In this document: one piece after another, positions 48,658 to 57,104 of the stretch
Layout: each line of letters opens with the position of its first letter
How positions within the stretch are numbered: position 1 is the stretch's first letter
Assembly (NCBI RefSeq): GCF_014844075.1
Contig: NZ_CP062165.1
Coordinates: forward strand, 1,612,001 to 1,676,000
Direction: 5' to 3'
Length of the DNA: 64,000 bases
Origin: Paenibacillus sp. JNUCC-31
GTDB lineage: Bacteria; Bacillota; Bacilli; Paenibacillales; Paenibacillaceae
The notes under the pieces: generated by a model
Database searches by the model: none
What the model saw: the letters and a program-made list of their open reading frames with translations, nothing else
What the model was told of the DNA's origin: nothing
Program-made: the position numbers and the translations under genes

Positions 48658-49821
48658 CTATGTCATTCTTTTGTTTTTATTATAGATATCGAAAGCTACT
48701 GCCAGCAACAGCACCAGACCCTTGATGCCCTGCTGCCAGTCTATCCCCAAACCAATCAGGGACATGCCGTTGTTCAGAACCCCCATAACCAAACCACCGA
48801 TGATCGCTCCAAATACAGTCCCGATTCCTCCCGAAGCGGAAGCTCCGCCGATAAAGCAGGCTGCAATGGCATCCAGCTCAAAGTTGGTACCGGCTCTGGG
48901 TGTAGCCGCATTCAGTCGTGCTGCGAAGATCAAGCCGGATATGGCCGCCATCACGCCCATGTTTACAAATACCCAGAACGTCACTTTTTTCGTTTTCACA
49001 CCGGACAGACCGGCAGCCTTCTCATTGCCTCCAAGTGCATATACATGGCGCCCCATTACGGTGCGGTTCATGATGAAGGAGTAGACGATAATCAATACAA
49101 ACAGCAGAATCAGAATATTCGGAATCCCTGCATAGCTCGCAAGCATAAAGGTGAACAGATTCGTTACTGCAGCCACGACCAGCAGCTTGAGCAGGAAGAG
49201 CCCCTGAGACACAACTTCGAATCCGTATTTACGCTGGGAACGGCGCTCCCGCAGTTCGTTTACGATATACCAGACCGTGAGAACAACACCAACGATGATG
49301 GACACCAGACCCAGACCTGAAAACTGAATATCAGGCAGGAAGCCTGAACTTATTTTCTGGAACCCGCCTGGAAAAGGAGAAATCGATTGCCCCTCCAGCA
49401 CGATCATCGTCAAGCCTCGGAAGAGCAGCATGCCTGCCAGGGTTACGATGAATGCCGGAATCCGCACATACGCAATCCAAAAGCCCTGCCACGCCCCAAT
49501 CAGCGCACCAACCACCAAAGCAGCAATGACCGCCAGCCAGGCCGGAAGCTGCCAATCAACCATCATAATCGCTGCAACCGCGCCTACAAAAGCAGCGATC
49601 GAACCTACCGACAAATCGATATGTCCGGTAATAATGACCAGCACCATTCCGATCGCCAGCACCAGAATGTAACTGTTTTGCAGGATCAGATTTGTTATGT
49701 TAATCGGCTTGAGCAGCAATCCGCCAGTCAGCACCTCGAACAACAACATAATTACAACCAGTGCGATAATCATGCCATATTGCCGTATATTGTTTTTGAA
49801 CAGTCTAGTTAACATTTCCAT
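48658..49821 (-). CDS. CUT2 sugar ABC transporter permease (XylH/GguB type)
   Basis: A protein of 387 residues with ten or more membrane segments. It carries GHIDLSVGSIAAFVGA (residues ~65-80) and GVKTKKVTFWVFVNMGVMAAISGLI (~265-290), AATPRAGTNFELDAIAACFIGG (~300-321), typical of XylH/GguB/MmsB permeases. It would transport xylose or another monosaccharide with the ATPase and binding protein encoded upstream. Start ATG 49821 is preceded by AGGAGGCGGGAAGC and overlaps the ATPase gene by 17 bases. It is the last gene of its operon. Confidence 0.95.
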   Translation of the reverse strand: MEMLTRLFKNNIRQYGMIIALVVIMLLFEVLTGGLLLKPINITNLILQNSYILVLAIGMVLVIITGHIDLSVGSIAAFVGAVAAIMMVDWQLPAWLAVIAALVVGALIGAWQGFWIAYVRIPAFIVTLAGMLLFRGLTMIVLEGQSISPFPGGFQKISSGFLPDIQFSGLGLVSIIVGVVLTVWYIVNELRERRSQRKYGFEVVSQGLFLLKLLVVAAVTNLFTFMLASYAGIPNILILLFVLIIVYSFIMNRTVMGRHVYALGGNEKAAGLSGVKTKKVTFWVFVNMGVMAAISGLIFAARLNAATPRAGTNFELDAIAACFIGGASASGGIGTVFGAIIGGLVMGVLNNGMSLIGLGIDWQQGIKGLVLLLAVAFDIYNKNKRMT

Positions 49822-51355
49822 GCTTCCCGCCTCCTGACTTTGTCATATATCTCATCAACGTTTCCTGCGATGCTTCTTCCCGGCTGACTTGCCCCGTAAT
49901 GCGTCCGGCATTCATCACGTAGATCCGGTCACATAGGCCCAGCACCTCTGGAAGCTCGGAAGAAATCACCAGCACGCCTTTGCCTTCGGCGGCGAGCCGA
50001 TGGATTATGGTATAGATTTCGAATTTGGCCCCAACATCGATCCCTCGTGTTGGTTCATCCAGAATGAGAATATCCGGACCGGCAAAAATCCATTTGCTCA
50101 GCACCACCTTCTGCTGGTTCCCGCCGCTCAAATTTCCGGTTTTCTGCAAAATGCTCGGTGCTTTGATATTCATGCTTTTTTTCATATCCTCGGCTACCAG
50201 CACTTCCTCTCGTTCGTTCACGACCGCATTTCTGGTCAGCTTGCCAAGACCTGTAAGCGAAATGTTCCGCTTGATATCGTCCATGAGAATCAGACCGTAT
50301 TCCTTGCGGTCCTCTGTCACATAAGCGAAACCGTTCTGAATCGCCTCAGTTACGCTGTTGTTCTGAATGGGTTTGCCATCCTTGATGAGTTGGCCCGTAA
50401 TGCCGCGTCCATACGATTTGCCAAATATGCTCATGGCAAGCTCCGTACGTCCGGCCCCCATCAGACCGGCAATGCCCACAATCTCCCCGCGCCTGATGTT
50501 CATGTTGACCTGATCCAGCACCTTCCGTTCAGCATGATGCTCGTGATACACGGTCCAGTCTTTCACTTCGAGGATCACTTCACCGATTTGCGCATGGCGC
50601 TCCGGATAGCGGCTCGTCAAATCGCGGCCAACCATTCCGCTAATAATCCGATCTTCCGTCACCTTATCCTTTTTCATATCCAGCGTCTCAATGGTCTTGC
50701 CATCCCGCAAGATTGTCACCGAATCGGACACTTTGGACACCTCGTTCAACTTGTGGGATATCAGAATACAAGCGATGCCCTGCTTCTTGAATTCCAGCAT
50801 CAACTGAAGCAAATTCTCACTGTCATGCTCATTCAGTGCAGCAGTGGGCTCATCCAGAATGAGCAGTCGCACCTTTTTGGAGAGCGCCTTTGCAATCTCA
50901 ACCAGCTGCTGCTTGCCCACACCGATGCTGGATACAAGACTATTCGGATTTTCGCTCAGTCCCACTTTGGCGAGCAATTCCCGTGTGCCGACAAACGTTT
51001 CTTTCCAGTCGATGATCCCTTTGCTCGCACGCTCGTTACCCAGATATATATTTTCCGCAATTGAAAGGTAGGGAATCAGTGCCAGCTCCTGGTGGATGAT
51101 GACAATACCCAGATCCTCACTTTGTTTAATATCCTTGAACTCACACGGTTTGCCCTGAAATAAAATCTCTCCTTCATATGTTCCATGTGGATATACACCG
51201 CTAAGCACCTTCATCAACGTGGATTTCCCTGCACCATTCTCACCGCATAGTGCATGAATCTCGCCTTCTCTGACCTTGAGATTGACGTTTTCCAGCGCTT
51301 TTACGCCGGGAAAGGTTTTGGTGATGCCCTTCATTTCCAGAATAATTCCGGCCAT
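49805..51355 (-). CDS. CUT2 sugar ABC transporter ATP-binding protein (XylG/GguA type)
   Basis: A protein of 516 residues with two fused ABC domains. The first has Walker A GENGAGKST, signature VGKQQLVEIAKAL and Walker B LLILDEPTAAL. The second has a degenerate Walker A (GLMGAGRTE), then LSGGNQQKVVLSKW and ILILDEPTRGIDVGAK. This asymmetry is normal for monosaccharide ATPases. Start ATG 51355 has AAAGGAGTAGATCTC upstream. It lies 21 bases after the binding protein gene and overlaps the permease gene. The gene order binding protein-ATPase-permease equals xylFGH. Confidence 0.96.
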   Translation of the reverse strand: MAGIILEMKGITKTFPGVKALENVNLKVREGEIHALCGENGAGKSTLMKVLSGVYPHGTYEGEILFQGKPCEFKDIKQSEDLGIVIIHQELALIPYLSIAENIYLGNERASKGIIDWKETFVGTRELLAKVGLSENPNSLVSSIGVGKQQLVEIAKALSKKVRLLILDEPTAALNEHDSENLLQLMLEFKKQGIACILISHKLNEVSKVSDSVTILRDGKTIETLDMKKDKVTEDRIISGMVGRDLTSRYPERHAQIGEVILEVKDWTVYHEHHAERKVLDQVNMNIRRGEIVGIAGLMGAGRTELAMSIFGKSYGRGITGQLIKDGKPIQNNSVTEAIQNGFAYVTEDRKEYGLILMDDIKRNISLTGLGKLTRNAVVNEREEVLVAEDMKKSMNIKAPSILQKTGNLSGGNQQKVVLSKWIFAGPDILILDEPTRGIDVGAKFEIYTIIHRLAAEGKGVLVISSELPEVLGLCDRIYVMNAGRITGQVSREEASQETLMRYMTKSGGGKHGNVN

Positions 51356-51376
51356 GAGATCTACTCCTTTCAATCG

Positions 51377-56060: not shown

Positions 56061-57042
56061 TCGCGCTTGTCACCACAGAGATTCCGGTATCCACCCTTAC
56101 CGGCAGCGGTGCATTCTCACCGGAAGTGGATGGGGCAGGTACGGTTAGCTGATGATGCAGATGGAATAAATATTGAAGCGACCAATACCCCATATTCCAG
56201 GTTCCCTGCGCAATTGTAGCCGAAATCGTGCCGCCCTTGATCATATCCAGCGTGGCCTTGTTTGTATCGAAAGATATAATTTTGAGCGAACGTCCATCCT
56301 TGGAATTCTGGACAGCTTCACCCGCGCCTGCCCCTCCGGTCGCCTCGGTCACAAAAATACCCGCCAGCTTCGGGTGTGCCTTCATCAGTCTAAGCGTCTC
56401 GTCCCTTGATACCAACGCATCTCCGTGTCCATCCGCAACTTCCACCACCTTCATGGATGGATAGCGCTGCTCCATCGTATCGCGGAAGCCCTTGGCTCGC
56501 TCCTCATGATTCTGCTGTCCAGGCAGAGTCAGCACGGCGACTTCCCCTTCGCGGGCCATCAGCTCGGCCATTTTGTCAGCAGCCGTTACACCCGCCTTGT
56601 AATTGTCCGTTCCGAGAAAAGAATATGCCCGGCTTTCGGGTGCATCCGCATCAAACAATACGACGGGAATGTCCGCGTCGATGGCCTTGTTAATTGCGGG
56701 AATCAATGATTGCGGATCGATCGCAGAGATGGCAATTCCCGCCGGTTTGCGTGCAATAGCCTGTTCGATCACCGTTGTCTGTTCCTTTGCATCGTACCGG
56801 GTAGCACCGCGATACTCCACGGTTACGCCAAGCGCATCTCCTGCGTCCTCGAAGCCTTTCAGCGGGCTCTTCCAATATTCCAGCCCGGACTGGAATGTGA
56901 TCATCATGTACGTTTCGCCAATATCCCCGCGCAGTCCCCTGTCTTCCCAGGAGCCATTCACCTGGCTGGAGTATTCGAACCGAAGCACATACAATGCAAA
57001 TGCCGAGATTAGCAAAATATAAACCAGCAGCATTTTTTTCAT
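56035..57042 (-). CDS. Membrane-anchored sugar-binding sensor protein (XylFII-like)
   Basis: A protein of 335 residues from ATG 57042. It starts MKKMLLVYILLISAFALYVL and then passes into a type I periplasmic-binding domain: FQSGLEYWKSPLKGFEDAGDAL, VIEQAIARKPAGIAISAIDP, DADIPVVLFDADAPESRAYSFLGTDNYKAG, IISFDTNKATLDMIKGG. There is no lipobox cysteine; the N-terminal helix seems uncleaved and would anchor it outside. That fits a sensor of the XylFII type rather than a transporter subunit. It is coupled to the kinase gene and likely presents a pentose (or related sugar) to it. A perfect cre lies 47 bases upstream. Confidence 0.9.
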   Translation of the reverse strand: MKKMLLVYILLISAFALYVLRFEYSSQVNGSWEDRGLRGDIGETYMMITFQSGLEYWKSPLKGFEDAGDALGVTVEYRGATRYDAKEQTTVIEQAIARKPAGIAISAIDPQSLIPAINKAIDADIPVVLFDADAPESRAYSFLGTDNYKAGVTAADKMAELMAREGEVAVLTLPGQQNHEERAKGFRDTMEQRYPSMKVVEVADGHGDALVSRDETLRLMKAHPKLAGIFVTEATGGAGAGEAVQNSKDGRSLKIISFDTNKATLDMIKGGTISATIAQGTWNMGYWSLQYLFHLHHQLTVPAPSTSGENAPLPVRVDTGISVVTSANVDDYYAK

Positions 57043-57088
57043 TCCGTTCACTTCCTCCAATAATCTGTCGGCTTGCATTTCGATTAAA

Positions 57089-57104
57089 TTGTAAACGCAA
57101 TCAT
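57089..57104 (+). promoter_or_regulatory. cre site, perfect consensus match
   Basis: TTGTAAACGCAATCAT matches WTGNNARCGNWWWCAW at every position. It lies 47 bases upstream of the anchored-sensor gene, overlaps a TACAAT -10-like sequence on the minus strand, and predicts CcpA-mediated glucose repression of the whole sensory operon. Confidence 0.75.

Follow-up and report, generated by a model that had tools for sequence, protein, structure and literature searches.

The 64,000-nucleotide stretch of Paenibacillus sp. JNUCC-31 DNA analysed here (NZ_CP062165.1, positions 1,612,001 to 1,676,000; hereafter the window) carries a sugar-sensing and sugar-import locus which most probably represents the AraPST-AraEGH type in Paenibacillus, with L-arabinose as the proposed signal. 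A preliminary description of this DNA had recognized a three-component sugar sensor, composed of an anchored substrate-binding protein (SBP), a kinase and an AraC-type response regulator, linked with a CUT2 importer and accompanied by catabolite-responsive elements (cre). This outline was confirmed, and the sugar then proposed was replaced.

The sensor is a Peripla_BP_4 protein (Pfam) and its nearest characterised relative is AraP. The match to AraP (6sw4) reached 394 bits with 59 % identity, in comparison to 231.7 bits for CbpA and 98.5 bits with 27 % identity for XylFII (5xss); the next sensor-like protein in the window's genome scored only 61.7 bits. The relatives compared were the best 80 of 192 from a sensor scan of genomes. 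A phenylalanine (Phe50) was found in 81/81 sensors at the site matching His22 of XylFII, the correspondence being mapped via F47 of CbpA (PMC9601137, excerpt) and the alignment; in the same excerpt His22 bonds to O4 of the ligand. The pocket-side motifs TF, FD, NH, FD and AQGTW were likewise invariant in 81/81 sensors, that of Parageobacillus L072 included, whereas CbpA has NS and AQGMY in place of the last two. The locus had been taken previously as the Paenibacillus equivalent of the XylFII-LytS-YesN system, i.e. as a D-xylose sensor with a xylose importer. The fourfold higher score against AraP and the replacement of the xylose-contacting histidine in all sensors argue against this assignment, and the importer does so as well.

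All three importer proteins passed the curated NCBIfam cut-offs for ChvE (545.2 against 460 bits), GguA (885.5 against 810 bits) and GguB (592.4 against 450 bits), but the XylF and XylG models stayed below theirs (227.6 of 389.55 and 575.1 of 723.65 bits, respectively). The XylF/G/H likeness reported earlier was retained as a more distant similarity and dropped as an identity. The importer SBP has a lipobox (LSAC, C20), is closest by sequence among solved structures to ChvE 3urm (499.6 bits) and is the only one of its kind in the window's genome, where the next match reached 47.2 bits. The ChvE-type importer would suit a sensor reporting other or several monosaccharides, e.g. galactose, fucose or glucose. 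CbpA, a relative of the sensor, is a weak glucose binder according to the excerpt of PMC9601137, and GanP of Geobacillus is described as binding glucose and galactose. Such a sensor is nevertheless unlikely, as AraP is the closest characterised relative and the pocket-side motifs do not vary among the sensors, CbpA departing from them at the last two.

The flanks of the loci were probed with the AraA, AraD, XylA and GH51 proteins of the window's own genome. Arabinose-type genes were present in the fetched flanks of 13/80 loci, in one case (L076) as a GH51 fragment of 73 residues, and XylA in the fetched flanks of 0/80. Among 148 Paenibacillaceae genomes the sensor was found in 72, AraA in 120 and XylA in 130. 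The sensor occurred in none of the 10 genomes with XylA but without AraA, in comparison to 72 of the 120 with both (Fisher p 2e-4, relatedness of the genomes ignored). Both the empty XylA flanks and the missing sensor in XylA-only genomes speak against a xylose system; membership in the XylFII type was rejected and is very improbable. L-arabinose is the likely ligand of the sensor.

The six genes lie on the minus strand and make up two transcription units, as read from open reading frames (ORFs) and translations (Table 1), and their positions agree with those given before. The first unit comprises the sensor, kinase and regulator genes, and the second (48658-52462) encodes the SBP, ATPase and permease. 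The sensor and kinase genes overlap by 26 nt, if the kinase begins at its first ATG, and the kinase and regulator genes by 4 nt; the overlaps and the Pfam domains bear out the earlier view of a single regulatory operon with a CUT2 importer downstream. The units are parted by a terminator-like hairpin, whose stability was equalled in 0/200 shuffles. A consensus scan for promoters and terminators was uninformative (8 and 8 sites versus 11.0 and 8.1 in shuffles).

The sensor, kinase and regulator genes stood together in 80/80 loci. The SBP gene was found in the fetched stretch of 67/80. In 51 of these it followed the regulator at a distance of no more than 1 kb, in 8 it lay further downstream, and in another 8 its place was upstream of the sensor; for the remaining 13/80 it lay outside the fetched stretch. 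The order of the window, with the CUT2 importer next to the three regulatory genes, recurs in Parageobacillus L072 and Anoxybacillus L059, L068 and L070. In L072 and L059 the permease gene is followed by a GntR-type gene and AraD, and AraD lies near the locus in L059, L068 and L070. Of the 148 genomes, 71 had both sensor and importer, one (75 % complete) the sensor only, none the importer only and 76 neither; at the thresholds used both were single-copy where found. Sensor and importer were apart in 9/71 genomes, at 15.7-21.9 kb in 7 and on different contigs of a draft assembly in 2. Five of 16 same-genus genomes (G038, G060, G099, G115 and G147) lack both the sensor and the ChvE-type SBP, so the module appears to be lost or gained as a whole. 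G120 has a sensor gene with three stop codons and no match to the first 38 residues (contig C1, ~2034559-2035449), and keeps the importer SBP and the conserved element described below despite this damage. A Prismane-family gene (435 aa) follows the regulator in seven loci (L023, at 14359-15666, L026, L027, L030, L032, L036 and L058), and the importer is displaced by several kb in L027 and L036.

A 45-bp conserved element, CAAAAGTTGAAATTTTATAAAAAAGGTTCAAATGCAGCAAAGACC, lies upstream of the SBP gene, its last bases forming a weak -35 sequence. A weight matrix trained on 68 importer upstreams scored 67 of these same 68 sequences higher than the best of 340 shuffles (L066 fell below). A further 20 importer upstreams were scored, 3 of them with a core that also occurs in a training sequence, and 20/20 outscored every one of their own 20 shuffles; among them were the upstreams of 9/9 importers whose sensor is more than 15 kb away or lies on a different contig. 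Of 64 element matches in 81 stretches, 62 precede an importer, with 0 matches in shuffled loci; the other two (L032 at 20652 and L046 at 20299 on the other strand) do not precede a sensor. On these grounds the idea that the sensor operon regulates itself through the element was rejected. The 7.55-Mb genome of the window contains one site at up to 3 mismatches and the reversed control none. One match was found in 8/11 same-genus genomes with the sensor, and 1/5 without the sensor has a match with 3 mismatches. The narrow element pattern was found in 33/148 genomes; it misses distant genera and includes some chance-like matches with 3 mismatches, so it was left out of the co-occurrence counts.

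The element is probably the operator of the regulator, judging from its position and conservation, and its layout is as expected for an AraC-type activator overlapping the -35 region. No paper naming such an operator was found in a search of the literature on the operator and on Paenibacillus cases, the 2011 Geobacillus paper being outside that search. The element could alternatively be a promoter core or the site of another factor, with the regulator acting elsewhere. In favour of this are its high A+T content and its overlap with the -35 region. The repeat of its half-sites is, moreover, a modest signal in such A+T-rich sequence: 6.4/10 positions match at a shift of 20 bp, 5.5 at 19 bp and no more than 4.5 at any of the remaining shifts between 14 and 29. 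This explanation has a low probability given the single match in the whole genome, the preference for importers over all other positions, the retention of the element before the separated importers and the almost invariable co-occurrence of importer and sensor.

The perfect cre announced in the preliminary description exists and is conserved, but it sits at the sensor promoter, and the importer promoter has two one-mismatch sites instead. A perfect cre was present within 200 nt before the sensor in 43/81 cases (0.25 in shuffles) and within 200 nt before the importer in 36/68 (0.4 in shuffles). The consensus occurred 277 times genome-wide versus 99 for a reversed control, and by both comparisons the sensor-side cre exceeds chance. 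When one mismatch was allowed, 68/81 sensor upstreams gave a match (5.6 in shuffles). Since 15 of these matches hold AAAGGGG near the start codon and were read as ribosome-binding sites, only the 43 perfect sites were relied on.

The kinase combines dCache_1, HAMP, His_kinase and HATPase_c domains (Pfam), and its ectodomain taken alone also gives dCache_1. The LytSN chains were not among the 50 matches listed in a fold comparison of the kinase, which proves nothing. In the regulator the motif VDMNMP starts at residue 83, and D84 is probably the receiver aspartate, as read from the motif. The preliminary description had pointed to a large extracellular sensor domain of the kinase itself and to two sugar inputs that may be combined. 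The domain is present, but dCache_1 recurs in the other kinases scanned, from Parageobacillus L072, Halalkalibacterium L051 and Anoxybacillus L068, and two inputs as something special to this operon were discarded. A combination of two inputs, with the sensor reporting a sugar and the dCache domain a second ligand, is itself improbable: the domain may only relay the signal of the sensor, and the CuaDSR ectodomain, not established as dCache, bound none of the sugars tested according to an excerpt of PMC10384115.

The sensor has a single hydrophobic stretch, within residues 1-24 at the N-terminus. Like 80/81 sensors compared, that of the window has no Cys in its first 40 residues, in agreement with the earlier claim of an anchored periplasmic-binding protein without lipobox. 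Since the lipobox is also absent in Parageobacillus L072, the hydrophobic stretch suggests that the sensor is held in the membrane by an uncleaved N-terminal helix rather than by lipid. The sole exception, L088, has a Cys in the lipobox-like LVAC.

Four known systems were compared with the locus. AraPST-AraEGH of Geobacillus stearothermophilus, named in excerpts of PMC4194401 and PMC4617443, is matched by the AraP-type sensor, the kinase, the regulator and the adjacent CUT2 importer. An excerpt of PMC4194401 places a copy of araN upstream of araPST in a strain of the species of Parageobacillus L072, there called Geobacillus. In L072 a GH127 gene lies upstream of the sensor, and araN would likewise be a GH127 gene; gene order and the ChvE/GguA/GguB importer families of L072 are the same as in the window. 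In contrast, the arabinose catabolic genes are located elsewhere in the window's genome, and the printed sequence of 6sw4 has a Cys at residue 12, whereas the window sensor has no N-terminal Cys. The XylFII-LytS-YesN system of Clostridium beijerinckii (excerpts of PMC6321045 and PMC9601137) shares the overall plan and the Peripla_BP_4-type fold of the sensor and differs in sensor sequence, in the ligand-contacting His replaced here by Phe and probably in the kinase ectodomain, which is dCache_1 by Pfam in the window. In CuaDSR of Ruminiclostridium cellulolyticum, too, an importer is induced by an SBP acting together with a pair of YesM/YesN type, but CuaD is a cellobiose-binding lipoprotein, and the size of the SBP (410 aa) and the importer differ (PMC10384115, excerpt). 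The likeness to ChvE-GguAB lies in the three importer proteins that exceed the equivalog cut-offs; the difference is that the importer was found here only alongside an AraP-type sensor (71/71 genomes). In Agrobacterium, ChvE also signals to VirA.

Several observations weigh against the arabinose assignment or parts of it. All 72 genomes with the sensor have XylA as well as AraA, so that the sugar is not settled by gene content alone. On the contig of the sensor and no more than 50 kb from it, XylA was found in 5/72 and AraA in 4/72 genomes; the five XylA cases belong to one genus, at 23-31 kb, and two of the AraA genes lie 6.7 kb off. The window's own genome has araA and xylA each at a distance of more than 600 kb. 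As a member of a multiple-monosaccharide family, the importer may accept a broader range of substrates than the sensor. AraP was reportedly called a lipoprotein by Shulami et al. in 2011, and the window and Parageobacillus sensors have no N-terminal Cys. A second element match, with 2 or 3 mismatches, was present in 3/11 same-genus genomes carrying the sensor.

In the proposed arabinose mechanism, the sensor would stand at the outer face of the membrane on its uncleaved helix and bind L-arabinose, and the arabinose-bound sensor would act on the kinase via the dCache ectodomain, whereupon the kinase would autophosphorylate at H439 and pass the phosphate to D84 of the regulator. The regulator, bound to the 45-bp element overlapping the poor -35 sequence of the importer promoter, would recruit RNA polymerase, and the ChvE-GguAB-type importer would then take up arabinose and perhaps other monosaccharides. 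In the presence of better sugars, CcpA may act on both promoters by way of their cre sites.

Table 1. Features of the sensor-importer locus, with positions in the window
Feature	Position	Strand	Remarks
AraP-type membrane-anchored sugar-binding sensor (predicted)	56035..57042	-	335 aa; ATG at 57042, stop at 56035; no lipobox
YesM-type histidine kinase, dCache_1 ectodomain and HAMP	54087..56060	-	657 aa; PHFLYNTL with H439; from Pfam, motif position and fold
AraC-type response regulator	52780..54090	-	436 aa; Response_reg and HTH_18
ChvE-type sugar-binding lipoprotein (importer SBP)	51377..52462	-	NF040907; 3urm
GguA-type ATPase of importer	49805..51355	-	NF040905
GguB-type permease of importer	48658..49821	-	NF040906
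Terminator-like hairpin and T run	52714..52754	-	regulator/SBP intergenic; -21.1 kcal/mol, z -4.31
45-bp conserved element, candidate operator	52589..52633	-	two half-sites about 20 bp apart
Weak -35-like AAGACC	52589..52594	-	18 nt before -10; reading from sequence
-10-like TACGAT	52565..52570	-	reading from sequence
Perfect cre TTGTAAACGCAATCA	57089..57103	+	46 nt before sensor ATG; matches consensus WTGNAANCGNWNNCW
cre-like TTGTAAGCGTTATCC	52510..52524	-	one mismatch; downstream of importer -10
Second cre-like ATGTAAGCGGTTATT	52537..52551	+	one mismatch; seen also in L009

Other regulatory genes occur elsewhere in the window. At 20643-30143 a GH10 xylanase gene (29139-30143) has as neighbours a kinase gene (26008-27900) and the genes of two response regulators of AraC type (27803-28909 and 24446-25996), hence two regulators per kinase. 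The 553-aa protein encoded beyond these regulators (22637-24298) had no Pfam match at 1e-5, and two more ORFs follow. A further pair of an AraC-type response regulator and a YesM-type kinase is encoded at 3667-7055, with a dCache_1 match under the cut-off.

The locus is a good but ordinary example, from a soil bacterium, of a known system, with a very well conserved control site before the importer. In place of the initial guess of xylose there is now a testable assignment to arabinose, for a module which 72/148 Paenibacillaceae genomes carry, and an exact 45-bp candidate operator is named for AraT-type regulators. It would be improbable that the whole constitutes an indivisible sense-and-import module, in which a narrow arabinose sensor has the promoter of a broad importer as its sole target, the operator stays with the importer when the two are separated and, with a second ligand at the dCache domain, two signals gate the entry of several sugars. 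What deserves further work is the control element, together with the strict pairing of sensor and importer. If the proposed mechanism is true, the system would be a compact switch that responds to sugar and acts on a single target promoter.

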